Shown: positions 11,820-36,377 of the stretch, one piece after another
How the letters are laid out: every line of letters begins with the position of its first letter
Position numbering within the stretch: position 1 is the stretch's first letter
Source of the DNA: Candidatus Kapaibacterium sp.
GTDB lineage: Bacteria; Bacteroidota; Ignavibacteria; Kapaibacteriales; Kapaibacteriaceae
DNA length: 42,659 nucleotides
Direction: 5' to 3'
Assembly (NCBI GenBank): GCA_018882895.1
Contig: VERF01000016.1
Location: 1 to 42,659 of the forward strand
Notes under the pieces: generated by a model
What the model was told of the DNA's origin: nothing
Seen by the model: the letters and a program-made list of their open reading frames with translations, nothing else
Database searches by the model: none
Program-made: the position numbers and the translations under genes

Positions 11820-12505
11820 TGAGCAAGGCCATTGTACTATTGTCAGGGGGCATGGATAGTTGCGTTACCCTTGCATGTGCAGTTTCTGATGGGCAAGAGG
11901 TCTATGCGCTGCACGTGAACTACGGTCAGCGCACGCAGGAGCGTGAGCTGCGGGCCTTTAACGAGATTTGTGACTTCTACAGCATACCACATCGCCTGGT
12001 CGTAGATATCTCACATTTGGCTGCAATTGGTGGTAGCAGTCTCACCGACAGTCGCATTGATATTCCTGCATCTCCTCTTGCGCAGACTGGCGTCGTGCAT
12101 GATGGTGGTGAGATCCCTTCGACCTACGTTCCCTTTCGAAACGCCAACATTCTTGCCATCGCTACGAGTTGGGCAGAGGTTGTAGCTGCTGAAGCACTCT
12201 ACATCGGGGCCGTTGAGGAGGACTCGAGTGGCTATCCCGACTGCAGAGATGTGTTCTTTCGGGCATTCGAAGAAGTCATAAATGCCGGTACTAAACCTGA
12301 TACTCGTATTCGCATTATCACGCCCCTTATCAGCTTGCGCAAGTCGGATATTGTACGACTCGGCAACCAATTAGGTGCGCCGTTGCAGCTGACCTGGTCA
12401 TGCTATGCCAGGCAGGATGTGGCCTGCGGTGAATGTGATTCATGCCTGCTTCGCCTGCGAGGCTTCGAGGAAGCAGGATGTCCGGATCCCATAGAATACG
12501 CCTAA
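11819..12505 (+). CDS. queC: 7-cyano-7-deazaguanine synthase
   Basis: 228 aa; makes preQ0 from 7-carboxy-7-deazaguanine with ATP and ammonia in queuosine biosynthesis. The PP-loop SGGMDS is at residues 9-14. The C-terminal zinc-binding cysteines appear as C-x7-C-x2-C-x2-C in SCYARQDVACGECDSC. VPFRNANILAIATSWAE is another family stretch. It starts inside the upstream stop (TAATG). No other queuosine gene is in the window. It closes the housekeeping block. Confidence 0.96.
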   Translation: MSKAIVLLSGGMDSCVTLACAVSDGQEVYALHVNYGQRTQERELRAFNEICDFYSIPHRLVVDISHLAAIGGSSLTDSRIDIPASPLAQTGVVHDGGEIPSTYVPFRNANILAIATSWAEVVAAEALYIGAVEEDSSGYPDCRDVFFRAFEEVINAGTKPDTRIRIITPLISLRKSDIVRLGNQLGAPLQLTWSCYARQDVACGECDSCLLRLRGFEEAGCPDPIEYA

Positions 12506-12514
12506 AGGGCTGAA

Positions 12515-12592
12515 CGCATCGATCAACCTGTTGGTCCATGCGACATCACTGCGGAATTAGTCCGCAACCTCCACGACAAGGACGAACGTCGT
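12515..12592 (+). other. Three consecutive hairpins between queC and the fibre locus
   Basis: Shortly after the queC stop there are three inverted repeats in a row: CGCAT/ATGCG (12515-12542), TGCGGA/TCCGCA with a 5-nt loop (12550-12566), and ACGAC/GTCGT (12573-12592). None is followed by a T-run. They may end the queC transcript without a classical terminator or form the leader of the next gene. Confidence 0.4.
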
Positions 12593-12652
12593 AGCACGAA
12601 TAAAGAGTGCCGCCGATAGACTTGCCATGTTCATCATCAAAAGGGATGCATC

Positions 12653-13213
12653 ATGGCACTACACAAACAGATCCTATCGGCACTTGCCCTCGGCATGCTC
12701 GTTTGTCTTTGCTCTATGCGAGCGCAACCGATCATGCGATCGCATGTACTCGGCTCAGGCGGTGCCGTCTTTGCCGGAAACGTCACAGATACGATTCGCC
12801 TCTCAGGAACCGTCGGCCAGACCTTGGCAACGACGCCCGAACCATCGGCATCACAGAGTTTGTGGGAAGGCTTTTGGGTGCCGTGGCGATTTGAAATGAC
12901 TTCAATCGAGGTGTCTGCAGCGGAAGGCGACCGACTCGAAGTCTTCCCGAATCCCTTTACATCGCGCACCACCATTCGACTTCCGAGGAGATTTCTCGGT
13001 GAAGTCAGCATCGTCCTATTCAACCTCGCAGGGGAGAGAGTGCGAACACTCACGGTGGAAGCCGGCGGTACTGATCGCACCGAGGTTCCAATTGATGCAT
13101 ACGATGATCTGGGTGATGGGCTGCCGACGGGTGTCTACATCCTTGAGGTCAGCGGCTCGATGTCTGTTGGCACAGCACTGCGTCTTCATGGCATGATCCA
13201 TCTCGTTCAATAG
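12653..13213 (+). CDS. Small exported protein with T9SS C-terminal sorting tail (copy 1)
   Basis: 186 aa. A signal peptide (about 1-25, ending SMRAQ) is followed by a domain of about 60 residues with the pattern LGSGG...GTVGQT...WEGFWVPW. The C-terminal 90 residues look like a type A T9SS sorting domain: FPNPF at 98-102, then TTIRLPRR, LFNLAGERVRTL and GVYILEVSG. Such tails direct proteins through the outer membrane by type IX secretion. The SD AAGGG is well spaced. It lies 35 bp before a fibre-like gene, and the arrangement recurs at 15623. The function of the short N-terminal domain is unknown; it may anchor or help export the neighbouring fibre. Confidence 0.75.
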   Translation: MALHKQILSALALGMLVCLCSMRAQPIMRSHVLGSGGAVFAGNVTDTIRLSGTVGQTLATTPEPSASQSLWEGFWVPWRFEMTSIEVSAAEGDRLEVFPNPFTSRTTIRLPRRFLGEVSIVLFNLAGERVRTLTVEAGGTDRTEVPIDAYDDLGDGLPTGVYILEVSGSMSVGTALRLHGMIHLVQ

Positions 13214-13248
13214 ACTCATTACCATCACCACATAGAAGGAAACACATT

Positions 13249-15297
13249 ATGAACAGAACGAATCTGACTCGCTTGCGCAACGTCATTCTCGCTCTCGCCA
13301 TGGCCGCTTGTGCGGTCGCATCATATGCGCAGATGCCGCGAAGTATCTCCTATCAGGGACTTTTGACGCAACCAAATGGAGAGCCGATCATTGACGGTAC
13401 ATATGAACTCGTCATTCGGATGTTCAATGTGGAGTCAGGCGGAACGCTCCTCTGGGAAGAAGGTCACACCGTGCAGTTGCAGCGTGGATTATTCAGCGTG
13501 TATCTGGGAGACCAGGTGCCGTTGACGGCAGTCGACATGTCACAGCGACTCTATCTCGAGACGGCCATCGTAGGTGGTCCGGTCTTTCCCCGTGCGCGCC
13601 TGTCAATGGTTCCAATGGCAATGAGATCCATTCTGGCCGATAGTGCAATGGGGCTGACCCAGTCGGCCAATGGTTTCGTTAAGTCACTCAACGGCCAGCA
13701 GGGCAATGTTCAAGTGCGCGCTCGTAACGGAGTTTCTTTAACGCAGGTAGGCGATACGCTTGTGCTGCAGTCAACCGTTCAGCCAACGGGCGTCCAAGCA
13801 CTGATAAGTTCCGAGAACACAATCCGCATCACCGGGTCGACAGGTCCAACCGCCAACATCGACGTGCGAGATGGCTCGATCACAGCGGCCAAGATCGCCG
13901 ATGGTACCATCACGTCTAATGAGTTGGCAAGTGGTAGTGTTACTCTATCGAAGATCGCCGGTGGTGTGATCCCCACATCGCTTCCGCCAACCGGACCAGC
14001 ATCCGGAGATCTAACCGGGAACTACCCAGCCCCCTCGATCGCAAGTGGAGCCATTACGACCACTAAGCTATCAGACAATTCCGTCATCGCATCCAAGCTG
14101 GGCGATGGTGCGGTCAGTGCCCCGAAGATCCTCGACGGCGCAATCAGCACTGCGAAGCTTGCCGACGGTGCCGTATCAAGTCCAAAGTTGTCACTGACCG
14201 GTGTGACGGCGGGTACATATGGCAACGAGCTGAACATACCACAGATCACTGTCGACGATCGCGGTCGGATCCTGCTGATCTCCAACAAGTCTGTTGGCGA
14301 CTTCCCATACATCGTCCCGGCTGGGGGTGATCTTACAGGTACATTCCCGGCGCCGTTCATCAAGATCAATGCCGTAAACACATCCAAGATCCTGGATGCG
14401 GCAGTGACGACATCAAAGCTGGCGCCTCTGGGCGTGACCAATGACAGGATAGCCCCCAACGCGGTCACCACCGAGAAGATCGCAGATGGTACGATCGTGA
14501 CCATGGATCTTGCTCCCGGGACGATTCCGGCAACACTTCCTCCCAATGGTCCGGCAGGGGGCGACTTAACCGGAACGTACCCCAATCCGACAGTTTCGGT
14601 CTCTGCTGCCACGGGTGGACGAATCATCACTGCAATCAGGACAGCTGCCCAGGCAATGAACCCCGACGTTAACACGGCCGGAAACATCGTCGTCCTTGAC
14701 GCCTCGGGACGCCTGCCCGCCTCATTGGTCGCGAACATCGGCGATGTGAAATACTCGTATGCTACAAGTAACCATAATGGATGGTATCGTCTGAACGGGC
14801 AGAACCTCTCTGCGCTTCCGCCCGTAGCTCAGGCTAACGCTGCCATTCTTGGCTTCATGGGGACGCTGCCGGATACCCGGGACCATGTGATCAAACACCG
14901 TGATGAGCTTGGCACGGGCGGTCATGGCTCGGAGGCGGTAGGATCTGTGACTGGAGCCAATGACTACGTAATTTATCAGGAGAATCTGCCCCCTCTCTAC
15001 GGTTACACCGGGTTTGAAGGTGCTCACACGCATAACGTCTTCGACCCGGGGCATACACATACGATAAACTACGGGACGGAGCCCGACGATGCAGGTCCGC
15101 CGGTCAGCTTCGATGAAGTTACCACTGCACCCGGAGCCAATCCCGGTGCCATTGAGCCAGCTACAACTGGTATCATGATTGAGTATGGTGGGGAGCATAT
15201 GCATGAGGTCATCGTCAATGACTGGTCACCCATGTTGCCCGTCAACAACCGTCAGGCTAGCCTTAACCTCAATGCTTTCATATTCTTAGGTTACTAA
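13249..15297 (+). CDS. Exported fibre-like protein with phage tail-collar-like C-terminal tip
   Basis: 682 aa. Signal peptide about 1-28 (ASYAQ). Residues 30-180 form the SYQGLL N-terminal domain seen in many FCB surface proteins. From about 205 to 460 short repeats of the form DGAIxxxKLxDG alternate with PPxGPAxGDLTGxYPxP segments. The last 190 residues resemble phage tail-collar/tail-fibre tips: GWYRLNGQNLS near 510, LPDTRDHVIKH, and an ending LNLNAFIFLGY. Three His-x-His motifs (593/595, 602/604, 650/652) match the metal-binding pattern of trimeric phage fibre tips. No YPNPF tail is present. It follows the small T9SS protein by 35 bp. It is probably a trimeric surface fibre; the target is unknown. 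Confidence 0.78.
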   Translation: MNRTNLTRLRNVILALAMAACAVASYAQMPRSISYQGLLTQPNGEPIIDGTYELVIRMFNVESGGTLLWEEGHTVQLQRGLFSVYLGDQVPLTAVDMSQRLYLETAIVGGPVFPRARLSMVPMAMRSILADSAMGLTQSANGFVKSLNGQQGNVQVRARNGVSLTQVGDTLVLQSTVQPTGVQALISSENTIRITGSTGPTANIDVRDGSITAAKIADGTITSNELASGSVTLSKIAGGVIPTSLPPTGPASGDLTGNYPAPSIASGAITTTKLSDNSVIASKLGDGAVSAPKILDGAISTAKLADGAVSSPKLSLTGVTAGTYGNELNIPQITVDDRGRILLISNKSVGDFPYIVPAGGDLTGTFPAPFIKINAVNTSKILDAAVTTSKLAPLGVTNDRIAPNAVTTEKIADGTIVTMDLAPGTIPATLPPNGPAGGDLTGTYPNPTVSVSAATGGRIITAIRTAAQAMNPDVNTAGNIVVLDASGRLPASLVANIGDVKYSYATSNHNGWYRLNGQNLSALPPVAQANAAILGFMGTLPDTRDHVIKHRDELGTGGHGSEAVGSVTGANDYVIYQENLPPLYGYTGFEGAHTHNVFDPGHTHTINYGTEPDDAGPPVSFDEVTTAPGANPGAIEPATTGIMIEYGGEHMHEVIVNDWSPMLPVNNRQASLNLNAFIFLGY

Positions 15298-15610
15298 TCG
15301 CCAGTCGCCGACACACAGCTCACGCCTCACAAGCCCCCTTACATCTACTCGGCCCGTTCGTCGGTAGAACGTTCGATCCAGATCAGGATCGGCAGGTCTA
15401 CCCTCTGGACGGGCCGTCTCTATTAGCGGCTGGAGATCGATGTTGAGATATTCAGTATTTATACATACATTGCTCCGTCAACAATCGGACAACTGAGTTT
15501 AAGTTATCCACACGCGCCCCCCAAAAAATTCACATCTTGTTGGCGGAAATGCCGTGAAAGGTTTGGAGAAAGGGGGCAGTTGTCATAGATTGTACGTGAT
15601 TCGAAAGGTT
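15298..15610 (+). other. 313-bp intergenic region between the two small-protein/fibre pairs
   Basis: It holds a nested inverted repeat (15350-15416), a GTATTTATAC palindrome near 15461, a TTATCCACA box (15504-15512), a poly-C/poly-A stretch, and a 19-nt copy of sequence from the end of the first transketolase gene (15539-15557). I see no gene or clear consensus promoter. It probably ends one transcript and starts another. Confidence 0.5.
15350..15416 (+). terminator. Large nested hairpin after the collar-fibre gene (candidate terminator or regulatory structure)
   Basis: The outer stem CGGCCCGT (15350-15357) pairs perfectly with ACGGGCCG (15409-15416). Inside, GGTAGA pairs with TCTACC, and GATCC with GGATC. 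An alternative inner pairing CGTTC/GAACG (15355-15371) excludes the outer stem. No T-run follows, so rho-independent termination is uncertain. Confidence 0.45.
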
Positions 15611-15622
15611 ATGGAGCAACGA

Positions 15623-16174
15623 ATGCGGCTTTTTTGTACGCTGTTGCTAGGGGGGCTAATTGTGTTCGTCCACCCGGCAACCTCACAACCTCGACTGACT
15701 TCCTCCGTGATTGGATCCGGAGCGTCACTTCTATCTAAGTCCCCCAATGGGTCTGGAATTTCCAGCACCATTGGCCAGGTTGTGATTTCGGCGCAAGTGC
15801 GCTCGGACAGCACAGCTCTGTATCAGGGCTTCTGGGTTCCGTATCTCTACGGAACTGTAGGTGTTGATGACCGCGAAGAGCAAACTGTTGCAGAGTTCGG
15901 CAACTACCCGAACCCGTTCACTACACACACGACGATCAGGTTTGCAACCCCCGTTGAGGGGCGTCTCACAATTAGGGTCTACAATCTGTTGGGGTCGCTA
16001 GTGCGAACCGTCACGGCCGAAGTGTCGATGGCTGGTTCGCAGGACGTGATGCTGCAGGCTGTTGACGATTACGGGGTGCCGATGCCGGCAGGAACGTACG
16101 TATATGAAGTCGAGGGGACCACGGTCTCCGGCGTACCGTTCCGCAAGTCCCAGACCCTTACCATCATTCGATAA
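15623..16174 (+). CDS. Small exported protein with T9SS C-terminal sorting tail (copy 2)
   Basis: About 183 aa, a paralogue of the protein at 12653. Signal peptide ends near ATSQ (residue 21). The N-terminal domain repeats the pattern VIGSGAS...STIGQV...YQGFWVPY. YPNPF at 95-99 begins the T9SS tail, followed by TTIRFATP, VYNLLGSLVRTV and GTYVYEVEG. The ATG at 15623 has GGAG six nt upstream; ATG 15611 and GTG 15554 are also in frame but less well supported. Its stop codon overlaps the start of the giant fibre gene by 1 nt (TAATG), so the two are probably translated in sequence. This tight link is the best hint that the small protein works with the fibre. Confidence 0.75.
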   Translation: MRLFCTLLLGGLIVFVHPATSQPRLTSSVIGSGASLLSKSPNGSGISSTIGQVVISAQVRSDSTALYQGFWVPYLYGTVGVDDREEQTVAEFGNYPNPFTTHTTIRFATPVEGRLTIRVYNLLGSLVRTVTAEVSMAGSQDVMLQAVDDYGVPMPAGTYVYEVEGTTVSGVPFRKSQTLTIIR

Positions 16175-19100
16175 TGAACACTTCTATGGTCAGAACCATG
16201 AACCGTTTCCTTCGCCCTTGCCTTGCCCTTCTGTTAGTTGTGGGCGTGATGGCTACCGCTGTCACGGCGACTTATGCGCAGATCGAGCGTCAGATAAGCT
16301 ATCAGGGCTTGTTGACGCTGCCCAATGGGTTGCCGCTTGATGACGGCCAATACGACCTCGTCATGCGATTGTATGATGCGCCGGTGGGTGGGAATCTCCT
16401 CTGGGAGGAGACGCAACAGACCATCCTGACGAAGGGGCTGTTCAACGTCTACCTTGGATCGGTCGTCCCGCTCAATGGCGTCGACTTCTTCAATACGCTG
16501 GTCTACCTCGAGACGGCGCTGGCTGGCCAGCCGCCGTTCCCGCGTACGCGTCTGGCCGTCGTGCCGTACGCAATCCGCGCAGAGCGCGCAGGTATAGCCG
16601 ACAGTGTCAGCATCAATGCAGGCGGATTTGTTCGCTCGCTGAATGACGCCGAGGGTAAGGTTGTGATTGCCGGACGTAACGGTATTGCTGTTACTCGCAA
16701 CGGTGATACGATCAGCATTGAGTCGACGATCACGCTGATGGGCATTCAGAACCTATCAAGCCCGCAGTCAACAATCGACATTGGTAATCCAAGCGGTCCG
16801 AACACCACTGTTGACATCCGTGACGGAGCTATCACAGCGATCAAGATCGCCGACAGCACCATTACGACGAACAAGCTTGTTGACAGTGTGATCACGAACA
16901 TCAAGATCGCCGACGGAGCTGTCACCATTGAAAAGATCGCTCCCGGTGTCATCCCAACATCGCTGCCACCGCGCGGCCCAGCCGGTGGCGACCTCACTGG
17001 CACCTATCCGAACCCGACGATCGCTCTTGGTGCTGTGACAGGGCCAAAGATTGCCGACGGTTCGATCTCGACATTGAAGATCGTCGACGGTGCGGTCACA
17101 ACGACTAAGATCCTTGACAACTCCATCACGACGCCGAAGATCGTTGATGGTGCGGTTTCAACGCCTAAGCTCTCTTCCACAGGTGTCTCGGCTGGTACAT
17201 ACGGTGATAACCTAAACATTCCGCGGATCACGGTCGACGATAAGGGTCGTATCACCTTGATCTCGGTTCAGCCGCTTACCAATTTCCCATTTGTCGTGCC
17301 TGCAGGGGGCGACCTAACGGGAACCTATCCCGACCCAATCATCCGCACAAACGCTGTCACATCATCCAAGATCCTCGACTTTAACGTAACAACGTCGAAG
17401 CTTGCCGACGGTGCAGTTACAACGCCGAAGATCGCCATCGGAGCAGTGCGTTCGGAGCAGGTTGCTGACGGATCTCTCACGGTGATCGACCTTGCTCCGG
17501 GAACAATTCCAACGACGCTTCCACCGTCGGGCCCGGCAACAGGCGATCTTTCGGGCTTTTACCCGGCACCGACCTTGTCGACCGCTGCCGGCGCTGGCTC
17601 GAGAATGGTCACGGCGCTGCGGAACAACTTCATTGCTGGAGACGCTAACGTCAATACAGCGAACAACATTGTCATGCTCAACGCGCTGGGTCAGTTCCCG
17701 GCAGCAAACGGCACGTTGATCACGAATCTAAACGTCAACAACGTTGGCTCTGGTGTTTTGGCTGTGCAATTCGGTGGTACGAATTCTTCATCTCCTCTGA
17801 ACAACAACCGGGTGATGGTTTCATCTGGTGGCCGCATCGTTGAGGCTGCGCAGCAGTCAGCCGGACAGTTGCTGATTGGTACCGGAGCAACCACTGCACC
17901 TGCCGTTGGCAACATTGTTGCAGGCACTGGAATGACGGTGACGTATTCTTCGCCGAACATTGTTATCGCATCTACCACACAGCCTGGTACGGCAGCAGAT
18001 CAGACCCTTCGTTGGGATGTTGTTGCTGGTGCATGGGTGCCATCGAGCAACGTTCTTTCCTCGGCTACCGGCAACCTGACTGTTAACGGCAACACGACAC
18101 TTGGAGACGCGGCGCTCGATCAGGTGCGCTTCAACGCTGCAACCGTAGGCATCCCGAACATACCGACGACAACGACCGCCGCCAATGTGCTCATCCGTAA
18201 TGCCACGACTGGAAACGTCGAAGTCTCGACGGCGAATTTCTCGACCTCGACCGTTCCCCTGGCTTCCAACACGGCAGTACGAACGAATGCTGCTGGCCAA
18301 CTTGAGTCCGTCGTTCTCACAAACGGACAACTGCTGATCGGCTCTACTGGTACTACACCTCAGGCAGCCACCGTCACTGGCACCACTAACCGTGTCATCG
18401 TCACCAATGGTCCTGGTTCAATAACACTCAGTCTGCCGCAGGACATTGCGACAACGAGTAACGTAAACTTCAATGCCGTTACCACGGCTAACAATGCTGT
18501 GATTGGCACCGGCCTGCAGGTAGGCGGGGCCGCAACAATTGGCGGCACACTATTGGTAACCGGCGGCACGACTCTCAATAGTTCACTCACGCAGTCGGGC
18601 GGACAAGTTGTCTTTGGCGGCAACGTGGATGCCAACAATGGACTGGATGTGGTCGGTCTCACTACGATGAACGGCGCGCTTACGCAGTCCGGAGGTCAAG
18701 TTACCTTCAGTGGAAATGTTGACGCTTTGGGTGGCCTTGATGTGGCTGGTCTTACGACTATGTCAGGTGCTGTGACGCAGACTATAGGCCAGGTCACTTT
18801 TGGTGGCAATGTTGATGCAAATGCGGGCCTCGATGTGACAGGCCTAACTACGCTTGCTGGCAGTGTTACTCAGTCCGGCGGTACGGTTACTGTTAATGGT
18901 GCAACAACCATCAACAATTTACTCTCGCAATCTGGTGGCCAGGTCACCTTTGGTGGTAACGTCGATGCAAACAATGGCCTTGATGTGCTGGGCGCAAGTC
19001 TCACCGTTGGTGGTGTGAACTTCACGGTCAATCCTGCGAATGGCAACACCTCGATGGCAGGAACACTAAATGCCAATGGCGCGGCAACACTCAATAGTAC

Positions 19101-28100: not shown

Positions 28101-30333
28101 TGTTGACGCTACTAGCGGACTGGATGTGACGAATGCGGACCTTACGGTAGGGGGCGCGTCAAAGTTTCAGGTTACAACGTCCGGAAACGTTACTGCAGAT
28201 GGCAACCTCGTGGTAAACTCCAACGCGACGCTGGGAAGTCAGAACACTGGGGCTGGTGACAACGTGACTGTAGACGTTCGTGGTACTACAACCAACGGCG
28301 CACTCACTGTCCGAGGCCTCAATGCCACGGGAACGTTTGCTGATGATGTTCTCCTGATCACCGGTGCGGACATTGTTCGCCGCCGCTCACTTAGCGACCT
28401 TATCGGTGCGGAATATGGCATCACTTACAACGAGGCTGGCAACGGCAAAATGCGCCTCGGTTCAGCCACGAGTGGCTCGACAGCTGCTGAGAACGTTCTT
28501 GGTGCAGATCGATTCATCAACCAAGGAGCCAGTGGCCTGTCATTTACTTGGTTGGATGTTGCAACGACAAGGACGATGCTCAACGCCAAGAATGGCGTTG
28601 TGACAATTACCGGAACATCGAACGTTGATGGTGTCGCCAACTTGAACGGCAATACCAACATCGGTAACGGTGACGGTGATGTGATCACGATCAACACTGC
28701 TGCGGGAACGAACCTTACGCTTGCTGAGACAGGGCTGACACGCACTGGCTCGGACATCGCAATCAACACGGGAGCCGGCAACAAGGTGACCACTAACGGA
28801 AGCTTGGAAGTCGCGGTGAACGCTACGGTGACAGGCAACGCTACAGTTAATGGCACGACAACTCTGAATGGCACATCTGCTCTGAATGGCAACACGGCTA
28901 TCGGAAATGGAGATGGCGATGTGATCACCGTCAACACGGCCGCCGGAACGGACCTGACGCTTGCAGAGACGGGTCTGACACGTACTGGCTCGGACATCGC
29001 CATCAACACGGGAGCCGGCAACAAGGTGACCACAAACGGAAGCTTGGAAGTCGCGGTGAACGCTACGGTGACAGGCAACGCCACAGTTAGTGGATCGACG
29101 AACCTAGGAGACAATGCATCAACAGATAATGTGATCATCACGGCAGCAACATCGATCACCGGAGCAACCACGATAACAGGCACCACGTCGATTAATGCGA
29201 CCGGAACGGGTACGTCATCAGTAGGAAATTCCACGAACGGTGGTGCGGTTACGATCGCGTCGAGTGGAGCCAACAACATCACCTTGAATCCGGGTGGAGA
29301 TCTGGTCTTGCAGAATATTGATCCAGATGCAGTTCCAACCCAGATGATGACGCTCACTTCAGCTGGCGAGGTTCGTAAGACTACGCTTTCGGGCACTGCT
29401 GATCAGGGTGTTAGTTACACCTCAGGAAAGTACCAGCTCGGTTCTTCAACGAATACTGGTGTGCCCCTTACCCAGAATCGTTTTGTCAATGCTTCGGATT
29501 TCACGCTGGACTTCACATTTAACGATGCCGGAACACCACGTTCGATGTTCCGTCTCAACGATGGAGAAGTTGTGGTAACGTCGCCCGCGAATTTCCGCGT
29601 CGTTGGACCGACTTTCATTGCAGGGAACACCCAGATCAATACCGCTGGGGGCGATGGGTCGACCTCAATCGGAAATGCCTCCGGCGCATTCACTTTGACA
29701 TCGAACAATCTCAACATTAGCGCAGTCGGTCTGATCAGCGATGCCGCCGGCGATGTCGAAATCAACGACAACATGAATGTCTCTGGAGCAACGGCACTTA
29801 ACGGAGCAGCCAACATCGGCAATGGTGACGCAGATGCAGTGGCTATCAATACGACTGGTAACTTCTCGATCGCATCGTCGCAGCTGAATGTGTCGACGGC
29901 CGGTACAATCAGGGATGCTGGTTCTGACAATGGCGGCGCCGTCTTCGTAGATGATGCTTTGCTTGTAGCAAACGCTACCACGATCAATGGCCCGACGACC
30001 ATCAACAATAACCTGACTGTCACCGGACAAGTCAAGGGAGCTGGAGTTGAGCGCCTTAACTCAGCTGCTGCGTCGAACAAGTATGCTGAGCGGGTCCGCA
30101 TTAGCGGCAATGCCGACTTCAAATACACGATCACCAATTCACAAGTTGCTGCAAACTCTGTGGTGATCATCACGTTGGAAGATTATACTGGTCCCGGCAT
30201 CCTTTCATACCAGATCAAACGGCCGAAGGACGGTGGGGGTAACGTCATCCCAGGTTCTGTTGACATTTATTTCTCGCAGCCGATCCTGACTGGTGAGTCG
30301 GTTGTCGTGAACGTTATGGTCATCAACGAATGA
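16174..30333 (+). CDS. Giant exported repeat fibre protein (4,719 aa), tail-fibre-like
   Basis: One uninterrupted frame of 14.2 kb. Signal peptide 1-36 (TYAQ). Residues 40-190 are the SYQGLL domain, homologous to that of the 682-aa fibre; 205-470 carry KIxDG repeats and GPAGGDLTGTYPNP segments. From about 630 to 4620 it is a mosaic of beta-rich repeats: a 31-aa unit (GQVxFGGNVDANxGLDVxG), short LxVxGxTTLxG strands, and roughly eleven larger modules marked by LIGADxGLTYNEAG and RFVNLGNNDLTFTTN or by TLSGTADQGV. The last 95 residues are non-repetitive, beta-rich and end VVVNVMVINE. It is rich in Gly, Asn, Thr, Ser and Val and poor in Cys. There is no YPNPF tail and no membrane anchor beyond the signal peptide. 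The sequence resembles phage tail-fibre shafts. It is probably a very long extracellular fibre, likely trimeric. Confidence 0.85.
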   Translation: MNTSMVRTMNRFLRPCLALLLVVGVMATAVTATYAQIERQISYQGLLTLPNGLPLDDGQYDLVMRLYDAPVGGNLLWEETQQTILTKGLFNVYLGSVVPLNGVDFFNTLVYLETALAGQPPFPRTRLAVVPYAIRAERAGIADSVSINAGGFVRSLNDAEGKVVIAGRNGIAVTRNGDTISIESTITLMGIQNLSSPQSTIDIGNPSGPNTTVDIRDGAITAIKIADSTITTNKLVDSVITNIKIADGAVTIEKIAPGVIPTSLPPRGPAGGDLTGTYPNPTIALGAVTGPKIADGSISTLKIVDGAVTTTKILDNSITTPKIVDGAVSTPKLSSTGVSAGTYGDNLNIPRITVDDKGRITLISVQPLTNFPFVVPAGGDLTGTYPDPIIRTNAVTSSKILDFNVTTSKLADGAVTTPKIAIGAVRSEQVADGSLTVIDLAPGTIPTTLPPSGPATGDLSGFYPAPTLSTAAGAGSRMVTALRNNFIAGDANVNTANNIVMLNALGQFPAANGTLITNLNVNNVGSGVLAVQFGGTNSSSPLNNNRVMVSSGGRIVEAAQQSAGQLLIGTGATTAPAVGNIVAGTGMTVTYSSPNIVIASTTQPGTAADQTLRWDVVAGAWVPSSNVLSSATGNLTVNGNTTLGDAALDQVRFNAATVGIPNIPTTTTAANVLIRNATTGNVEVSTANFSTSTVPLASNTAVRTNAAGQLESVVLTNGQLLIGSTGTTPQAATVTGTTNRVIVTNGPGSITLSLPQDIATTSNVNFNAVTTANNAVIGTGLQVGGAATIGGTLLVTGGTTLNSSLTQSGGQVVFGGNVDANNGLDVVGLTTMNGALTQSGGQVTFSGNVDALGGLDVAGLTTMSGAVTQTIGQVTFGGNVDANAGLDVTGLTTLAGSVTQSGGTVTVNGATTINNLLSQSGGQVTFGGNVDANNGLDVLGASLTVGGVNFTVNPANGNTSMAGTLNANGAATLNSTLAVTGSTTLSGNVVAGDGTGDNVAINTAGGGTLSMNGLPNVAGADVLMISGANAVSRFPITGLIGADEGLTYNEAGSARVRLGSTTTTASAMTANRFVNLGNNDLRFTTNAGNSTILTLDGDAVNFGVVINAGGTGVIDHNGASRFTGPITATGAVTQSGGQVVFGGNVDANSGLDVLGANLTVGGSNFTVIPASGNVSTAGSVTANGAAIFNSTMTVAGTSTMNGNVVAGDGNGDNVTINTAGGGALTMVGLPVAAGVDVLMANGANIITRTPINTLINADQALTYNEGGLGFVRLGSPNNLGSTMTMNRFVNLGNFDLRFTTNGGAVNLVTMDGDAVNYGVAINAAGTGSIALTGSTIHVGPSTFTGTITQGSGQVIFNGNVDANAGLDVTGLTTLTGNATQSGGTVTLGGATTINNTLTQTGATNQVSFAGNVDANNGLDVTGLTTLTGAITQGSGQVTFNGNVDAFSGLDVTGQDLTVGGANFTVSPLSGNTSVNGTLTVNGAATLNGNVTMGNGTSDNVVIDVSGGAGTLRMNGLVAGAGTDLLMINATNIVSRTPLANLIDADQGVTYNEAGSARMRLGSTTNVGVPFVTNRFINIGNNDLTITTNAGAQNLVLFDGDATNAGVTVTPSGTGRFVVNGGANLNGAVTMTNTVTQTGTLQVIFGGNVDANNGLDVTGQNFTVGGTRFTVAQASGNTTIGGTVDVTGAAQLGNTLTVAGNSTLNGNVIAGNGNGDDVTINVSGAGGELVINGLPVVAGTEVLMSNAANVITKTPLVAIIDANQGVTYNEDGTGKVRLGGTTNAVNPFAVDRFVNLGNFDLMFTTSAGANNILALDGGALNYGATINAGGTGSISLNGPTNITGTTSVTGATTITGTVTQNGAGQVTFTGNIDANNGLDVSGAFTVGGNSTLTGNLNQSAGTVTLGGATTIGGATNINNTLIVSGATTLSSSLRVDGNTTLGDAAADNITVNAATVTMANLPTATIVNKFIMSGTGGALQIREINNIVTGTGTPNRLTRWDATGAGILDASLSDDGAGVLSRSGNVSINPGAAFTLSTNGNFSVTGATTLTGAATMNGTATMNGAVNIGNGADAVAVNVTGSQLTLAGIGTAVGTDVLMANGSNVVTRTPITTLIGADQGLSYNEAGSARVRLGTDVRGQNTVSGNRFIDIGTTAKLIFTTNAGNAADDMLTLSGGSVNYGLALRSKGTGAIAMKAGALNGVGDVTTGTLLNLTPASGAQFKYFDPNQELGVILESGAREVIISAEDIAAGEVSEIRVKGSMVEISGPIYQATPDLVQFSGDVEMARKLDVVGNFAVNGNRFMVTASNGNTAIQGNLAVNGAVNLGDGVGADAVTVNVTGSNLKLVGIGTVPGADVLMINATNDVSRTPITNLIGADEGLTYNEAGSGKVRLGGTTNTTNPLTGNRFVNLGNNDLTFTTNNGTQNVIVVDGGATNSGVALNAAGTGSIALSGTTTVAGNSTFTGALTQGGGTATINGAATFTNSITQTGTGAVNLSGSVTSNGNLAVNGATTIGDAAGDALVINAGNITANNIPVGTTSTFVTLSGTTVQQRTINNIVTGTGTPSRMTRWITSSTIGDASLDDNGTGTLSRAVGDIAINPAAGGLLTTTGGLTVSGATSLGSTLSVTGATTLNSTLAVTGASNLNGTVTLGNGDADAITVNSTGGLFVNTGAGADLTITESAVSRAGNIAINTGATNSITTDGSLIVDGNAQVKGNTTLGDASTDQLTVLGTTLINTGTATASTSIGNATGNFTLVSSGLNITSAGVISDANSAVEVNDDLTVSGASSLQGSLQVTGASTLNGSVTLGNGDADAITVNSSGGMVINTAAGADLTITESALTRNGQIDINPGAANNVSTNGSLVVDRNATIRGNSNIGDAATDVISINGQTSINGTLTQSAGQVIFGGNVDANAGLDVLGTTTMTGIVNQSSGQVTFGGNVDANAGLDVVGTTTMNGALSQSNGQVLFGGNVDANAGLDVVGTTTMNGALNQSTGQVTFGGNVDANGGLDVNGASTFTGSMTQSGGSVSLTVSGVGNSLAVNGLPAGSVTGATPDDVMLITTATNQVRRRSIADLIGAEQGVSYNETTTDGKLRLGANAINKSLFASDRFINQRDFGLSFTYTDGVALPRTMLFMDNGIVNMAGTVTINGTAGVGSTSIGNASNLTTLTGSQINLRGIVDHSLGSVTFSTGLDRFLVQTSGSGSGLGTSIEVNSATAGILAVADDGTNLGELNVDPGSIDLNTTTGVRINSLNEGFTSIGNTTNGGAVSMLSSGSNDVTVNPGGDLVLKNIDTDATPTQMVTLTGLGQVRVTTLSGTADQGVIYSSGKYLLGGANNTQVPFTTDRFININNRNLNFTTTAGTILNLNGSSITANASMVQSGGTVAFSPGVGNQFRVTGATNINIAGTDATSIGNTGALLTLRGSSVDVTGNVLANSNLTVTGSTNLNGAVNIGNGDADPVVINTTGAFSLASNNLNISTTGSITDIGTDNAGAVFIDDALLVSGAAGFNGNVRVGSAGATFFTVDATQGNVSTEANLNVKGNVKLGDALTDLIDVIGVTNVTGNTTVKGANILLETTGASTSTALTMSNSATSLAWNEGTTSERAISMETGGVTLSSSTGAIYTEIAMTDATITIDGNTTLPKNLTVNGNVALGNSASLDAVTVTAATTITGAVGINSTGGATTTIGNATTGGAVSISSAGVNNITVNPGGDLVLQNIDADAVPTQMLTLTATGAVRRTTLSGTADQGVIYTNGQYLLGGATSTQVPFTSNRFINIGSQNLNFTTSAGTLVNLTGSTVTVSGNVTQTSGDVSFTPGAGKTFSVTGVTTIAGVTNINSGAAATTNIGTGAGTNTILGATFINATGTAATSIGNTGLLTLKGASVDVTGNIQANNGLTVTGASILNGAATIGNGDADAVAINTTGTFTLNSSNIKIDANGNISDNVGSVEIVDDLRVAGATTLEGSITQTGGAQVSFSGNVDATSGLDVTNADLTVGGASKFQVTTSGNVTADGNLVVNSNATLGSQNTGAGDNVTVDVRGTTTNGALTVRGLNATGTFADDVLLITGADIVRRRSLSDLIGAEYGITYNEAGNGKMRLGSATSGSTAAENVLGADRFINQGASGLSFTWLDVATTRTMLNAKNGVVTITGTSNVDGVANLNGNTNIGNGDGDVITINTAAGTNLTLAETGLTRTGSDIAINTGAGNKVTTNGSLEVAVNATVTGNATVNGTTTLNGTSALNGNTAIGNGDGDVITVNTAAGTDLTLAETGLTRTGSDIAINTGAGNKVTTNGSLEVAVNATVTGNATVSGSTNLGDNASTDNVIITAATSITGATTITGTTSINATGTGTSSVGNSTNGGAVTIASSGANNITLNPGGDLVLQNIDPDAVPTQMMTLTSAGEVRKTTLSGTADQGVSYTSGKYQLGSSTNTGVPLTQNRFVNASDFTLDFTFNDAGTPRSMFRLNDGEVVVTSPANFRVVGPTFIAGNTQINTAGGDGSTSIGNASGAFTLTSNNLNISAVGLISDAAGDVEINDNMNVSGATALNGAANIGNGDADAVAINTTGNFSIASSQLNVSTAGTIRDAGSDNGGAVFVDDALLVANATTINGPTTINNNLTVTGQVKGAGVERLNSAAASNKYAERVRISGNADFKYTITNSQVAANSVVIITLEDYTGPGILSYQIKRPKDGGGNVIPGSVDIYFSQPILTGESVVVNVMVINE
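18582..18956 (+). repeat. 93-bp tandem repeats (31-aa unit), first array in the giant gene
   Basis: The segment encoding QSGGQVxFxGNVDAxxGLDV recurs at exact 93-bp steps (landmarks 18613, 18706, 18799), with a diverged copy following. Codons differ between copies while the protein pattern is kept. Confidence 0.8.
24850..25221 (+). repeat. 93-bp tandem repeats (31-aa unit) x4, second array in the giant gene
   Basis: Four copies with the same landmark TTCGG at 24883, 24976, 25069 and 25162, exactly 93 bp apart. The encoded unit is FGGNVDANAGLDVxGTTTM plus about 12 residues ending in the QSxGQV strand. Confidence 0.85.
28642..29095 (+). repeat. 240-bp direct repeat x2 (80-aa module) in the giant gene
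   Basis: Two adjacent copies offset by exactly 240 bp. The stretch encoding GSDIAINTGAGNKVTTNGSL and the following EVAVNATVTGNATV is almost identical in DNA (about 28745-28850 against 28985-29090), so this duplication is recent compared with other repeats in the gene. Confidence 0.85.
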
Positions 30334-30368
30334 TCATGATATTGATGAAGCTCCGGGGGGACACTGAC

Positions 30369-33300
30369 ATGAAGAAAATGAAAACACAAGGTCATACGAC
30401 TATGAAGCGATTCCTTCTTCCATTGGTGATTGCCGTATTAGCAGTTGCCGCGTTTACCGCGCATGGACAAGACATCGGCACTCGAAGTCTGATCCTACGA
30501 GGGCAAAATTTAAACGCGTCATATACTGGTACGCTTCAGGTCCCGCTACTGACAGCACCAAGGACTTATGGTTTGCCGGACGCAAGTGGATTTCTGCTCG
30601 TTTCGCCCAACGCGAACCTTGAGCCGAACAGGATCCTCGTGTCGAACTCCAACGGTCTTGTCGAGACGCTCAATATGAACGTTGGCAAGCTTGTGCTCGG
30701 AACGACTGGGGGCTCGTATGAGCAGTTGACACCAACAGGATTGGGCGGAATCGTTATTACCAATGCTGGAGGCGAACTGCGATTTGACCTGCCAACAGGA
30801 ACGTCCAATGCCCTGCTGAGGTATAACAACGCTACGGGTAAGTGGATGGCCTCAGCCGGTGCAACGCTTGATGGTGCCGGTAACTTTGGCACAACGGCCA
30901 ATCTTACAGTGGATGGAAATACCACACTTGGAAACAATGCTGCCTCAGACCAGGTCACCATTAATGGTAAGACTGTTGTTGACGTTACTGGGCAATCGAT
31001 GACAGTCGCGGGGCTGCCAAGCACGGGAACGTTCACGGATGATGTTCTGCTGATCGCCCCTTCACCTGATAACTCAGTCAAGCGCCGCTCGATGGCGGAT
31101 CTCATTGGTGCAGAGGGAGGCATCACATACAATGAAGCATCGAATGGTCGTATGCGGCTTGGCTCGTCAACGAACGTAGCCAACCCACTCTTGGGAGACC
31201 GTTTCCTTAACCTGAACAATAACGATCTCACGTTCACAACGAACGGCGGAAGCACCGCGCTGGCGACATTTGAAGCCGGGGCGGGTGGTACGAATTATGG
31301 AGTAGCACTCAACTCGGCTGGTTCAGGTTTCGTCTCAATTTCCGGACCAGTGCGGATCAATACGACGGGTTCCGCAGTTACTTCCATTGGCAGTGGCGCG
31401 GGGAATGTCAATGTCTCTGCCAATATCCTAACTATGACTGCTGGATCCGGCCCGACGAATCTGCAGTTCGTAATGAACTCTAATACCGCATCTATTCAGT
31501 CAACCGGCAGTGAACAAACAATCACACTCGATGACGGTGCAAATGAGATCCTTCTCGAGTCCAACGATTTCTCACTCACGGCTTACACGTCTATCTCGAT
31601 CAAGCCAACTCAGATTGATGTTATCGGCAATACGCTGATCAATGGAACGCTGAACGTTAAGAAGAGCACGACGATCGGTGATGGCAACGGCGATAATCTA
31701 TCGATAGACGTCTCCAATGCTGGTGTAAATGGGTCGATGACGATCAAGGGGCTCAACAACGGCTCACTTGCAGATGATGTTCTCATGATTGGCTCCTCTC
31801 CGGCAAACATTGTCAAACGCCGTAGTCTTGCAGATCTGATCCAAGCTGACAATGGAATAACATACAATGAGAGCTCTCTCGGCTACATTCGTCTAGGTTC
31901 ACCGAATGCTACATCGAACGCTCTTACAACCAATCGATACATAAATGTTGGGCCCCAGAATCTGTATTTCACAGCGAATTCAGGGACGGCTTTCCCGCTC
32001 ACGATCGAAGGAGCGCCAAATGCTACCAACTATGGGGTATCACTTGTTGCAGGAACATCGGCGTCAGCAGCGATTTCAATGCTCGGAAATGTGACTGTTG
32101 ACACGCGCAATTCCGGTACGTTCGAGGTGACGTCAGGCGACAACATCGGAACACGCCTGAATATGTCATCGGCTGGAGCTTTGTTGAGTTATGAAGACAA
32201 CGTGTCGAACGCTCAGATAAACTTTGCCCTCGACCCGGGTGAAACGATGCTTTCGCTGAACGCAACAGACGGTGGATTGAATGATGCGCTTCTGGAGGTA
32301 AAGGCTATAGGACTGTTTGCCAGGGGAACGACCAACATCAACATTGCAGGTAATAAGTCAACAACAATCGGTAGCGCCACAGCCGGCGCGTTTAGCGCTC
32401 GCTCGTCAAACACTGTAACTCTTACAGCCGGAACGACACTCACAGCCACGGGTGCCACGGGTGCCACGATGAACGCCACGGCAGGTGCGCTGACGCTGAA
32501 CGCCAATTCGGCCACGGGCAGCGTAGTGGTCAACGCCACGAACGCCGCCGGCGATGTGGACATCAATGCCGGCGATGCCATTACGGTTGACGGAAAGACC
32601 ATCGGACTGACAACGGCCGGCGGTGACGTGACGATCTCGGTCCCGGGTGCAACCTCGGGCAATGACCTGGTTCTGAACGGCATCGATCCAACAACGGCGG
32701 CGGTGAACATGCTGACGCTGGACGGATCGAACAACGTGCGCCGGAAGGCGCTGACGTCGATGGCCGATGAGGGTCTGCAGTATGACGCTACGGACGGCGA
32801 GTTCAAGCTGGGCAATTCCACCGACGGCAACACACCGATCACCTCGTCGCGCTTCGTACGCGTCGATGGTGGCGGAACGCTGACGTTCAACACGGGCACT
32901 CAGAAGATGCTGGAGTTGAATAACAACGGTGCTGTGAATATCAACACAACGGGTAACGGCGCAACATCGATCGGAAGTGCTGCCGCCGGAGCCATCGGTG
33001 TTCAGTCGCAGACCACGATCGGCCTTACAGCCGGAACGACACTCACAGCCACGGGCGCCACGGGTGCTACGATGAACGCCACGGCAGGTGCGCTGACGCT
33101 GAACGCCAACTCGGCCACTGGGGAGGTTGAAATCAATGCTACCAATGGTGCTGGTGTGATTGACATCAATGCCGGTGATGCTGTTACGGTAGACGGCAAG
33201 TCGATCGCCCTGACATCGACAAGTGGAAACACATCTATCAATACAACTGGCACATCATCGACGAATATTGGTAACACAGCAGGCTCAGTAACGATCACTG

Positions 33301-33833
33301 GCACGACGACAATGAAGTCGGCTAGCGAGCTGCGTTTCGAAGACAACGATGGAACGGCCAACTACTCGTCGTTCAAGGCCGGTTCACAAACTGCGAATAT
33401 TCAGTACACGCTACCTACCTCCGTGCCAACAGCCACGAACAACATTTTAAAGGCGACGACAACATCGAATCCTATCACACTGGCTTGGAGCAATCCTAAT
33501 AGTGCCGTTGTTTACGATGTTAACTCACCAGCGACGTGGACTGGGAATCAGGATAACGTAGCACTTCCGACAGACGCTACTGTTATGAGAGTCTCTTCGA
33601 CTGTTGACGTCAACCTAAATGGCTTGAGCCCAACTGGAGTGACTATGGGACGCATCATGGTTCTCGTGAATTCGGGCACCAAGGCCATTACGCTGAAGGA
33701 CAACAACTCGGGTACGGCAAATGCAGGATTCATCCTGCCGGGTGATGCCGACGTCGTACTTGCCGCTGATGGTTCTATCACGTTGATGTATGATGCGACA
33801 TCAGGCGGCTGGCGCGTCCTGTCGGTGAACTAA
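30369..33833 (+). CDS. Exported fibre-like protein sharing modules with the giant fibre (1,154 aa)
   Basis: I use ATG 30369, which follows a GGGGGGA SD-like run; an ATG at 30330 overlaps the giant gene's stop by 4 nt, and ATG 30402 (MKRFLLPL) is also possible. The signal peptide ends near TAHGQ. The protein lacks the SYQGLL domain and instead starts with about 150 residues ending YNNATGKW. It then shares the giant fibre's modules: VKRRSMADLIGAEGGITYNE and two further versions. The C-terminal 110 residues form a distinct cap (GRIMVLVNSGTKAITLKDNN, then ITLMYDATSGGWRVLSVN) like those at the ends of tail-fibre-type proteins. No T9SS tail. It follows the giant gene by 35 bp and is probably in the same operon. 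Confidence 0.8.
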   Translation: MKKMKTQGHTTMKRFLLPLVIAVLAVAAFTAHGQDIGTRSLILRGQNLNASYTGTLQVPLLTAPRTYGLPDASGFLLVSPNANLEPNRILVSNSNGLVETLNMNVGKLVLGTTGGSYEQLTPTGLGGIVITNAGGELRFDLPTGTSNALLRYNNATGKWMASAGATLDGAGNFGTTANLTVDGNTTLGNNAASDQVTINGKTVVDVTGQSMTVAGLPSTGTFTDDVLLIAPSPDNSVKRRSMADLIGAEGGITYNEASNGRMRLGSSTNVANPLLGDRFLNLNNNDLTFTTNGGSTALATFEAGAGGTNYGVALNSAGSGFVSISGPVRINTTGSAVTSIGSGAGNVNVSANILTMTAGSGPTNLQFVMNSNTASIQSTGSEQTITLDDGANEILLESNDFSLTAYTSISIKPTQIDVIGNTLINGTLNVKKSTTIGDGNGDNLSIDVSNAGVNGSMTIKGLNNGSLADDVLMIGSSPANIVKRRSLADLIQADNGITYNESSLGYIRLGSPNATSNALTTNRYINVGPQNLYFTANSGTAFPLTIEGAPNATNYGVSLVAGTSASAAISMLGNVTVDTRNSGTFEVTSGDNIGTRLNMSSAGALLSYEDNVSNAQINFALDPGETMLSLNATDGGLNDALLEVKAIGLFARGTTNINIAGNKSTTIGSATAGAFSARSSNTVTLTAGTTLTATGATGATMNATAGALTLNANSATGSVVVNATNAAGDVDINAGDAITVDGKTIGLTTAGGDVTISVPGATSGNDLVLNGIDPTTAAVNMLTLDGSNNVRRKALTSMADEGLQYDATDGEFKLGNSTDGNTPITSSRFVRVDGGGTLTFNTGTQKMLELNNNGAVNINTTGNGATSIGSAAAGAIGVQSQTTIGLTAGTTLTATGATGATMNATAGALTLNANSATGEVEINATNGAGVIDINAGDAVTVDGKSIALTSTSGNTSINTTGTSSTNIGNTAGSVTITGTTTMKSASELRFEDNDGTANYSSFKAGSQTANIQYTLPTSVPTATNNILKATTTSNPITLAWSNPNSAVVYDVNSPATWTGNQDNVALPTDATVMRVSSTVDVNLNGLSPTGVTMGRIMVLVNSGTKAITLKDNNSGTANAGFILPGDADVVLAADGSITLMYDATSGGWRVLSVN
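32421..33118 (+). repeat. 95-bp direct repeat pair, 603 bp apart
   Basis: 32421-32515 and 33024-33118 differ at only three positions, all silent third-codon changes (Gly, Ala, Asn). The segment encodes LTAGTTLTATGATGATMNA and the following strand. The sequence between the copies is the unrepeated part of a larger module. Confidence 0.9.
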
Positions 33834-33851
33834 GACAGCGGGGAACTTGAA

Positions 33852-36377
33852 ATGAACACGACATCAATCTTGAAGGCTACACACATGAAGCGCGTTCTCA
33901 TTGCCTTGGCAACCCTTGCCTGCATCGGGTCGTCGGTCATGGCTCAGACGTATCGCCCCTTGACTGGCACACGGATGGTCTTGAACTCGGCATTCCCGAC
34001 AGGGGGCTCCTTGACGCTTCAAGCTAATCCGGGTGCGAGCTATACTCTGACGATGCCTTCGTCGGCACCAACCGGAAACTCCTTGTTGGCTAATGGTGCC
34101 GTACCCGGCACGATGGAGTGGAAAGCCCCCTTGGACATCTACCAGTTTACAAATGGCTTGACCGAGTCCGGAACCAGCACTGTTGAACTTGGTGGGACAT
34201 TAACGAAGAATACCACGATCGATGCCGCAACGCATACGTTGACGCTGCAGTCAGGACCTACAGGCATGGTCAATGTAAATGCTGACTTCCAAGTCACAGC
34301 TGACGATGGATCAATCAGCCTGAACGCTCCACAACAGGGCGTCAGCATTCAGGCAGCTACAAATTCGAGGCTTGGTGTTAAGACTGGACCCAACGAATCT
34401 TCCTTGTATCTCGACCCCTCCGGCGCGGAAATACGGATTGAGGATGCGGGGGCAACAAAGGCGAGTATGGCCTTGAGCTATGTTGGGCTCTCGAGTTCAT
34501 ACTCGCTTGAATGCGATGTAGTGGAGATCAGCACTCTCGGAGTAAATACGACCACGATCGGAAATGCTAACACAACCTTTTCTCTGATGTCTGACGGTTT
34601 GAACATTTCAAGTGCAGGTGTCATCAGTGATGCTGGTGGCGACGTGGTCTTGCTCGGCAATGTTGTGTCTTCTGCTCATGACACATACAATCTGGGCTCA
34701 AATCTGGTGCGTTGGCGAGACGTCTTCATTGGCCCATCATCACTCCACATCGGAACAGCATACGGCGCCACAGAGCTCCTTATCGGATACAGTGCGGGCA
34801 CTGGAACTGCATACTTCAATATTGATGCAAGCACAAATGCCTTTACCATTGATGCCGGTGATGGGATAACGGCAGGTCTGGGGCTGACTACCAATGGTTC
34901 CTTGACGGCCAACGGCAACGTGGCTCTTGGTTCAGATGCGAATGACCTTATCGCTGTCAACGGTGTTGTCTCTACCTCGTCATTGGTGTTTGAAGGATCG
35001 ACCGCGGATGCTAATGAGCTCACCCTGAGTATCACGAATCCCACAGCAGATCGCACGATAACATTCCCCAATGCGAGTGGCATTGTTTCTCTCGCGTCGA
35101 CCGATGGCAGCATGACAGTTGATAAGGACCTGACAGTTGGTGAAGATCTAGTTGTAACGGCAACAAGCTCCTTGCAAGGGGCGACCACGATCGGCAACGG
35201 AGATGGTACGGATATTTTGACCATCAATACGGACAATGCGACAGCTAACTTGGTTTTACAAGAACAGCAGATCAGCCGCACAGGTGGTCCAATCACCATC
35301 ACAGGCAGTGATGTCACCAATACCGAATCGTCACTATTAACTCTTGGAGGGGATGCTACCCTTGCTAATACTTCGGGCGGTGATGTGGTGATTACGGCCA
35401 CGAAGCCAGCCGGTCTCGGCGGAAAAGTTTCGATTGAAGCCGACCAGTCGGTGGAGATTGCGAATGACGAAGGTTCTGATGTAGCCTCGCTCAACCTTGA
35501 CGCCAGCACCAACGTCGAATTAATACAGAGCACTAATACTTGGGTTGGTTATCTGCTGATCGACCGAGCCACCAAAGGTGTTGAGCTCTCCTCATCGGAG
35601 TCTCCAAATGATGCTGTTTTAAGTCTCGATGCATCGTCGGGCACGGCATCAATCAGTGCATCAAGTACCGTGAACATCAATGCCGGTACGAACACGGGTG
35701 GAGTGACCATTGGTGGAAGCGCAGCTCAAACAATCGACATTGGTACTGGTGCTGCCGCAAAGACGGTCAGCCTCGGAAGCACGAATACAACAAGCACCAC
35801 CACGCTCAACTCCGGTTCGGGTGGTGTAAAGGTGAACGTCGATAACAACCAGCCAACGAACATCAACACCGGAACGAGCACAGGTGGAGTGACCATCGGT
35901 GGAAGCGCAGCCCAAACCATCGACATTGCTACTGGCGCAGGGAACAAGACGCTCAGCCTTGGAAGCACAGACGGGGCAAGCACCACCAAGCTCAACTCCG
36001 GTTCGGGTGGCGTAAAGGTGAACGTCGATAACAACCAGCCAACGAACATCAACACCGGTACAAGCACGGGTGCTGTTACCATTGGAAACACCAATACGAC
36101 GACTTCGGTCCTCGGAGGGTTGATTGTCTCGGTAAAGTCCGGCGCAGCGCCAATCAACGTTGACAACAACTCAGTGGTCATCGTTACCGGGGGATCGGTT
36201 AACGACGATGTAACTCTTCCTGCTGGAACTACTGGCCGTGTCGTGATCATTCGAAACGCCAGTATCGTCGATATCGATGTGGTCGACGCTGCTATCGCCC
36301 TGGTTCAGACGATCCCCGCCGGGCAGAACAGAACCTACATCTACGATGGAGCGGGTTGGGTGCAGATTGGTGACTGA
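33852..36377 (+). CDS. Exported fibre-like protein with 62-aa repeats (841 aa)
   Basis: Signal peptide ends near SSVMAQ (residue 32); ATG 33885 is an alternative start. The N-terminal part (TYRPLTGTRMVLNSAF, then SLTLQANPGASYTLTMPSSA) is related in style to the opening of the preceding fibre. The middle carries strands such as TTIGNANTTFSL and ISSAGVISDAGGDV that recur in the giant fibre. Near the end lie two perfect-period 62-aa repeats (GGVTIGGSAAQTIDI and NSGSGGVKVNVDNNQPTN) plus a partial third. The last 80 residues form a cap with VVIIRNASIVDIDVVDAA and YIYDGAGWVQIGD. It is 18 bp after the previous gene and is the last member of the apparent operon. Function unknown. Confidence 0.78.
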   Translation: MNTTSILKATHMKRVLIALATLACIGSSVMAQTYRPLTGTRMVLNSAFPTGGSLTLQANPGASYTLTMPSSAPTGNSLLANGAVPGTMEWKAPLDIYQFTNGLTESGTSTVELGGTLTKNTTIDAATHTLTLQSGPTGMVNVNADFQVTADDGSISLNAPQQGVSIQAATNSRLGVKTGPNESSLYLDPSGAEIRIEDAGATKASMALSYVGLSSSYSLECDVVEISTLGVNTTTIGNANTTFSLMSDGLNISSAGVISDAGGDVVLLGNVVSSAHDTYNLGSNLVRWRDVFIGPSSLHIGTAYGATELLIGYSAGTGTAYFNIDASTNAFTIDAGDGITAGLGLTTNGSLTANGNVALGSDANDLIAVNGVVSTSSLVFEGSTADANELTLSITNPTADRTITFPNASGIVSLASTDGSMTVDKDLTVGEDLVVTATSSLQGATTIGNGDGTDILTINTDNATANLVLQEQQISRTGGPITITGSDVTNTESSLLTLGGDATLANTSGGDVVITATKPAGLGGKVSIEADQSVEIANDEGSDVASLNLDASTNVELIQSTNTWVGYLLIDRATKGVELSSSESPNDAVLSLDASSGTASISASSTVNINAGTNTGGVTIGGSAAQTIDIGTGAAAKTVSLGSTNTTSTTTLNSGSGGVKVNVDNNQPTNINTGTSTGGVTIGGSAAQTIDIATGAGNKTLSLGSTDGASTTKLNSGSGGVKVNVDNNQPTNINTGTSTGAVTIGNTNTTTSVLGGLIVSVKSGAAPINVDNNSVVIVTGGSVNDDVTLPAGTTGRVVIIRNASIVDIDVVDAAIALVQTIPAGQNRTYIYDGAGWVQIGD
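35673..36080 (+). repeat. 186-bp tandem repeat (62 aa), two full copies and a partial third
   Basis: Units begin with AACATCAA at 35673, 35859 and 36045, exactly 186 bp apart. The second half of the first two units, encoding NSGSGGVKVNVDNNQPTN, is nearly identical in DNA. Confidence 0.9.

Follow-up and report, generated by a model that had tools for sequence, protein, structure and literature searches.

Six consecutive genes in the Candidatus Kapaibacterium genome examined here probably form an operon for surface-displayed, trimeric adhesive fibers of the MAT type, whose N-terminal ends would be held or exported by a small partner protein that travels through the T9SS. Support for this reading comes from the homology of the fiber N-terminal domain, a phage-like shaft, exchange of the tip at one chromosomal position, the near-exclusive linkage of the partner to fiber genes and the co-diversification of the two, the type-A CTD of that partner, and the presence of the translocon in the genome. 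A preliminary description of this DNA knew of no named system with this composition. That statement must be withdrawn, because in N-terminal domain and layout the fibers correspond to the Bdellovibrio MAT family (PMC10769870). Searches of the open literature found nothing tying MAT fibers to T9SS or to Kapabacteria. What is new, as far as searched, is the dedicated partner, in which a short GFW head is joined to a T9SS type-A signal.

Layout and genomic setting of the locus

The window analyzed is one whole contig of 42,659 nt from a 2.57-Mb genome in 131 contigs, and the closest named relatives of this genome are Ignavibacteria and Candidatus Kapaibacterium MAGs, with Kapaibacterium assigned to the Bacteroidota. 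Within the window, the ORF listing places six closely packed, co-directional genes on the forward strand at positions 12653-36377 (Table 1), with intergenic gaps of 35, 256, -1, -4, and 18 nt in order. The preliminary description correctly recognized that two of these genes encode small T9SS-tailed proteins, both over the TIGR04183 cut-off, and that the other four encode fiber-like proteins. It was also right that every product has a Sec signal peptide, as in all six a hydrophobic stretch precedes a site of cleavage type (A-Q, S-Q, or G-Q). The fiber sizes that it gave hold for 682, 4,719, and 841 aa, but its 1,154 aa is counted from an internal ATG in a full frame of 1,167 aa. An internal ATG is the likelier start of P0003, for which the start codon as called is GTG; the end of this gene overlaps the start of P0004 by one base.

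Table 1. Genes and protein parts of the locus (window positions)
Feature	Positions	Strand	Basis
P0001, small T9SS partner 1, 186 aa, with signal peptide	12653..13213	+	TIGR04183, 25.1 bits
P0001, GFW head	about 12728-12907	+	
P0001, T9SS type-A CTD	about 12941-13210	+	
P0002, MAT-like fiber 1, 682 aa, with signal peptide	13249..15297	+	Bdello_MAT_N and PHROG tail-fiber matches
P0002, MAT_N-like domain	about 13330-13776	+	
P0002, phage-tail-fiber-like shaft		+	
P0002, tip, HxH-rich, tail-fiber type	about 14731-15294	+	
P0003, small T9SS partner 2, 206 aa from GTG, with signal peptide	15554..16174	+	TIGR04183, 30.5 bits
P0003, GFW head	about 15692-15865	+	
P0003, T9SS CTD	about 15905-16171	+	
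P0004, giant MAT-like fiber, 4,719 aa, with signal peptide	16174..30333	+	Bdello_MAT_N match
P0004, MAT_N-like domain	16279-16743	+	
P0004, very long repetitive shaft		+	
P0004, own C-terminal tip	about 30001-30330	+	
P0005, companion fiber, 1,167 aa: signal peptide, different head, shaft, own tip	30330..33833	+	BLAST stretches with P0004
P0006, companion fiber, 841 aa: signal peptide, repetitive shaft, own tip	33852..36377	+	ORF and signal peptide
Seventh gene in the same direction, >2,090 aa, truncated at the contig end	36388..42657	+	open frame

The upstream neighbors are housekeeping genes, namely transketolase halves, polyA polymerase, L13, S9, S2, EF-Ts, RRF, DUF255, and QueC, together with an amino-acid-kinase-family protein in the pyrH position. 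Around the six genes, no phage structural, lysis, or integration gene was found within the window, in agreement with what had been claimed. A promoter and terminator scan of positions 12400-16400 returned matches no more numerous than in shuffles. The genome encodes a T9SS (SprA at 909 bits) and contains 96 CTD matches.

Conserved fiber bases with phage-like shafts and exchanged tips

P0002 and P0004 have 511 aa in common at 54% identity, starting from like N-ends. The domain that follows the signal peptide in both proteins has the consensus 'ISYQGLLT.P.G.P..DG.Y.L..RLYD...GG.LLWEE......GLFNVYLG...PL.......YLE......F.PR..L..VP.A' and is, by profile comparison, homologous to the MAT N-terminal domain of Bdellovibrio. 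The model for that domain (NF053851, Bdello_MAT_N) matches P0002 with an E-value of 3.3e-5, which is below the curated cut-off, and the excised N-domain of P0004 at 8.3e-6. It matches 35 of 36 family members, with a best E-value of 3.7e-11 (43 bits). The match spans roughly the first 75 of 162 positions, and scores of 21-26 bits for the window proteins and at most 43 bits among the relatives scanned leave every individually scanned protein below the curated cut-off of 60 bits. P0002 and P0004 are therefore homologs outside the Bdellovibrio MAT_N subfamily.

Residues 1-92 of the mature domain are predicted to fold as an Ig-like beta-sandwich (pLDDT about 90). By HMM match and predicted fold, P0002 and P0004 both carry, immediately behind the signal peptide, the conserved beta-rich domain (about 130 aa) by which MATs are recognized. 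The best fold matches (E 0.08 for Foldseek against PDB, E 0.001 against BFVD, and Z of at most 6.1 with VIA-align) were not interpreted because all are generic Ig-like sandwiches. No Pfam family was matched among the 36 members, and no solved structure for the domain was found by sequence. A MAT_N domain at L016:1501-2010 also matches the NCBIfam model choice_anch_R (E 8e-5, below cut-off), which suggests at the sequence level that MAT_N and choice-of-anchor domains are linked.

Beyond the N-domain, P0002 resembles phage proteins. Its shaft matches PHROG tail-fiber families 892, 28766, and 8469, and a tblastn search with the protein found matches in 72 phages, mainly to the shaft. Its tip carries HxH motifs and resembles phage fiber tips, with a weak PDB match to the phage long tail fiber 8kec (E 0.05). 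No PDB relatives were found for P0004, P0005, or P0006. The N-domain was absent from all 50,697 phage records searched, and its presence in IMG/VR was not confirmed. Because the domain is bacterial and missing from phage records while shaft and tip are phage-like, the fibers are chimeras of a bacterial base with phage-like shafts and tips. No CTD model matched P0002, P0004, P0005, or P0006, and the four fibers thus lack the mark of T9SS substrates.

Among the companion fibers, P0005 has shaft modules in common with P0004, seen as nine BLAST stretches, the best covering 398 aa at 34% identity (E 6e-42), whereas P0006 has only short stretches with P0004 (best E 5e-6) and none with P0002 or P0005. 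The earlier view that the fibers share repeat modules with one another therefore holds only in part. The P0006 shaft is similar to companion fibers at L047, another locus in the same genome. Neither protein has a MAT_N domain or any family match, and they are therefore not classed as MAT; they may be further fibers or distal segments. Downstream of 22 of the 82 complete MAT_N genes lies a gene whose head is like that of P0005, a rough count because the head profile also matches within some MAT_N fibers. Starting about 11 nt past P0006, the seventh gene contains six 291-bp tandem repeats, with SprB-like repeats (E 0.004, below cut-off) and Ig-like repeats. It may be part of the operon and possibly encodes a further surface protein.

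The N-domain query finds matches in 49 of 60 relatives and, over the whole phylum, in 85 of 296 sampled genomes, often several per genome (nine in the window's own); the genomes are for the most part MAGs. Complete MAT_N genes (n = 82) encode proteins of 240 to 4,719 aa with highly varied C-termini. An S74 chaperone lies near the C-terminus of 11 of them, and one MAT_N gene contains collagen repeats. In three relatives the fiber has an S74 domain and then a T9SS CTD of its own (L091:3462-14750, L093:5113-14391, and L118:3417-8888). Self-cleavage at S74 would strip the CTD from these fibers, which makes the order of cleavage and export puzzling. Most family members also have a conserved locus (L050:793-1560, L109, L124, L135-L138) encoding a MAT_N-only protein of 240-270 aa, possibly a base without a shaft. 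At the L050-type locus it is followed by a companion-type fiber head of about 300 aa and then two larger genes.

The small-protein and fiber pair recurs at a fixed chromosomal address. It lies downstream of queC at L166, L167, L170, L171, and L174; it follows frr-queC in genome G014, and in G018 it sits between frr-queC upstream and rpsD downstream. The locus is chromosomal and vertically inherited beside frr-queC in relatives. This housekeeping siting bears out the original proposal of a bacterial-encoded, exported fiber locus that reuses tail-fiber sequence and is not a prophage. The order of small T9SS protein, MAT_N fiber, and further fiber is conserved across the family as well, so that neither of the two findings named in the preliminary description as refuting was obtained. 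The full six-gene order is not conserved.

N-domains encoded at the position beside queC share 54-59% identity with that of P0004, whereas the last 130 residues of P0004, which include its tip, have no match in G014, G012, or G018 and are conserved only in G005, the closest relative, at 76%. A conserved presentation end and a diversified binding end, the combination that characterizes MATs, are thus found at a single position. Most relatives have one T9SS/fiber pair, and the second is confined to near relatives; P0001 and P0002 appear to have arisen by duplication of the pair. G008 retains this second pair. In G005 it is lost through a deletion on the reverse strand of contig C3 (L035:15562-16674), which has left a single 370-aa frame running from the partner CTD into the fiber tip, with a stop in what remains of the head. 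This fused frame is the decay of the duplicated pair.

MAT fibers, which act in prey recognition, have been described in one predator, Bdellovibrio bacteriovorus (Caulton et al. 2024, PMC10769870; NF053851), where the N-domain is expected to bind a yet-unidentified surface element. Like those fibers, the present ones have a signal peptide, a homologous beta-rich domain, a shaft of phage type, exchangeable tips that are S74 domains or otherwise diverse, and several to many paralogs per genome. Unlike them, they score below the curated subfamily, reach 4,719 aa, and are encoded with a T9SS type-A partner and companion fibers without MAT_N, in T9SS-bearing Bacteroidota. The spread of the N-domain across the phylum may partly be known already, as the supplementary tables of the MAT paper list other bacteria.

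Small T9SS proteins linked to the fibers

P0001 and P0003 are paralogs (33% identity) that both exceed the 23-bit TIGR04183 cut-off and combine the features of type-A T9SS substrates, namely a signal peptide, a CTD, and a translocon in the genome. The predicted fold of the P0003 CTD resembles the solved T9SS CTD of PorU (Z 10.1, 3.3 A over 95), mirolase (Z 9.4, 2.0 A over 76), and the NucA CTD in the translocon (Z 8.8), and the CTDs of PorZ and RemA are also among its best matches. The small proteins thus resemble type-A cargo such as PorU, PorZ, NucA, and RemA in signal peptide, CTD sequence, and predicted CTD fold. They differ in that the remainder is a fiber-linked head of about 60 residues with no enzyme domain. 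This common head, 'VIGSGG...LSGTIGQ.IIG.......QGFWLP', has an invariant G-F-W. Its single-chain fold model was not interpreted because pLDDT is under 50 over most of the head.

Searching 40 genomes with the GFW head alone yielded 56 copies. Of these, 44 adjoin a MAT_N gene transcribed in the same direction, 33 directly before it and 11 directly after, compared with a chance expectation of about 0.1 estimated from gene numbers. Seven of the remaining 12 adjoin fiber genes whose front part falls within a sequence gap or outside the contig, and the others are at contig starts, are the G005 remnant, or lie near a MAT_N match. A mirror-tree comparison of partner-head and N-domain distances across the 44 pairs gave a correlation of 0.67, versus 0.47 +/- 0.04 when paralogs were shuffled within genomes, and none of 5,000 shuffles reached the observed value. 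Judged by these distances, the comparison shows that partner and fiber pairs are inherited as units, and it is not proof of contact, since neighboring genes duplicated as a block diversify in step even when their products do not interact.

Neighborhoods were inspected for 108 MAT_N genes, 27 of which have both neighbors visible and no adjacent CTD gene; the partner is therefore not obligatory everywhere. Where the partner follows the fiber, as at some sister loci, the gene after the partner encodes an outer-membrane beta-barrel (L004, L176, L177, and borderline L179) or, at L182 and L181, an OmpA-family protein. To judge from gene content, these outer-membrane genes hint at an outer-membrane anchor. 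The order of fiber, small T9SS protein, and beta-barrel or OmpA-family protein can be seen at L004:13514-15250, L182:252-3215, and L176:4278-6026.

Proposed mode of display and alternative explanations

The signal peptides imply that Sec would take all products into the periplasm. The small protein of each pair, directed by its type-A CTD, would cross the outer membrane via the T9SS and would then, by the pathway known for type-A cargo, be attached to surface lipopolysaccharide or released (PMC12635249). Its GFW head would hold the N-terminal domain of the neighboring fiber, or escort the fiber out. The long phage-like shaft would stand off the cell, allowing the exchangeable C-terminal tip to bind a surface such as a glycan of another cell, and P0005 and P0006 would act as companion fibers with another head.

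We tentatively suggest that the GFW-headed T9SS protein may act for MAT-type fibers in Bacteroidota as their receptor on the surface or their carrier during export, giving a two-part form of display, and we place our confidence in this a little short of even. In such an arrangement a T9SS-delivered protein might hold or drag out a phage-like trimeric fiber that can reach 4,700 residues and itself lacks a T9SS signal. To our knowledge, the MATs of Bdellovibrio are displayed without a T9SS, and therefore this system need not carry the fibers. The T9SS is a system of the Bacteroidota group, and Bdellovibrio would therefore need a different surface element.

Fibers that are very large, repeat-rich, and charge-poor, with several different ones in one operon, could, instead of being cell-anchored receptor-binding adhesins, be shed or form part of an extracellular matrix or a biofilm sheath, with the small T9SS proteins as accompanying matrix components, and type-A substrates can indeed be released (PMC12635249). 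We nevertheless regard a matrix role as unlikely, because a conserved N-end with exchanged tips and with S74 chaperones in relatives is the signature of receptor-binding fibers, and because outer-membrane proteins are added at sister loci. Little credence is given to the idea that the fibers are direct T9SS cargo and that the small protein is a mere regulator or a coincidental operon neighbor. The three relatives whose fiber itself bears a CTD speak for it, at least two of them with the small partner still adjoining, but the window's four fibers match no CTD model and the partner head is linked almost solely to fiber genes.

The gliding-motility adhesins of the SprB/SprF type are likewise T9SS-dependent giants from the same phylum, and the weak SprB-like repeats of the seventh gene and the SprA translocon in the genome recall them. 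However, SprB is a type B substrate with a dedicated carrier (PMC12635249), whereas here a separate small protein of type A, the PorV-dependent class, adjoins the fiber, and the window, which ends inside the seventh gene, shows no SprF-like gene. That the locus is such a system is very improbable. A prophage or tailocin remnant is scarcely credible, for although the P0002 shaft and tip resemble phage tail fibers in sequence (PHROG 892, 28766, 8469; HxH-rich tips), all products have signal peptides, a MAT_N-like domain not found in the phage records searched is present, the context is housekeeping with no virion, lysis, or integration genes, and the position beside frr-queC is conserved across the family. 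For the sampled relatives, context, synteny, and signal peptides led to rejection of a prophage or tailocin.

A homologous N-domain is present in 85 of 296 sampled genomes of the phylum, and at this locus it is accompanied by a conserved and testable candidate for the MAT surface element, and the conserved T9SS partner makes the anchoring of MAT-type fibers a testable question. The fibers provide a naturally modular set of binding tips. In addition, the pair suggests a way for proteins that lack a T9SS signal to be displayed on the surface of cells that use this system.
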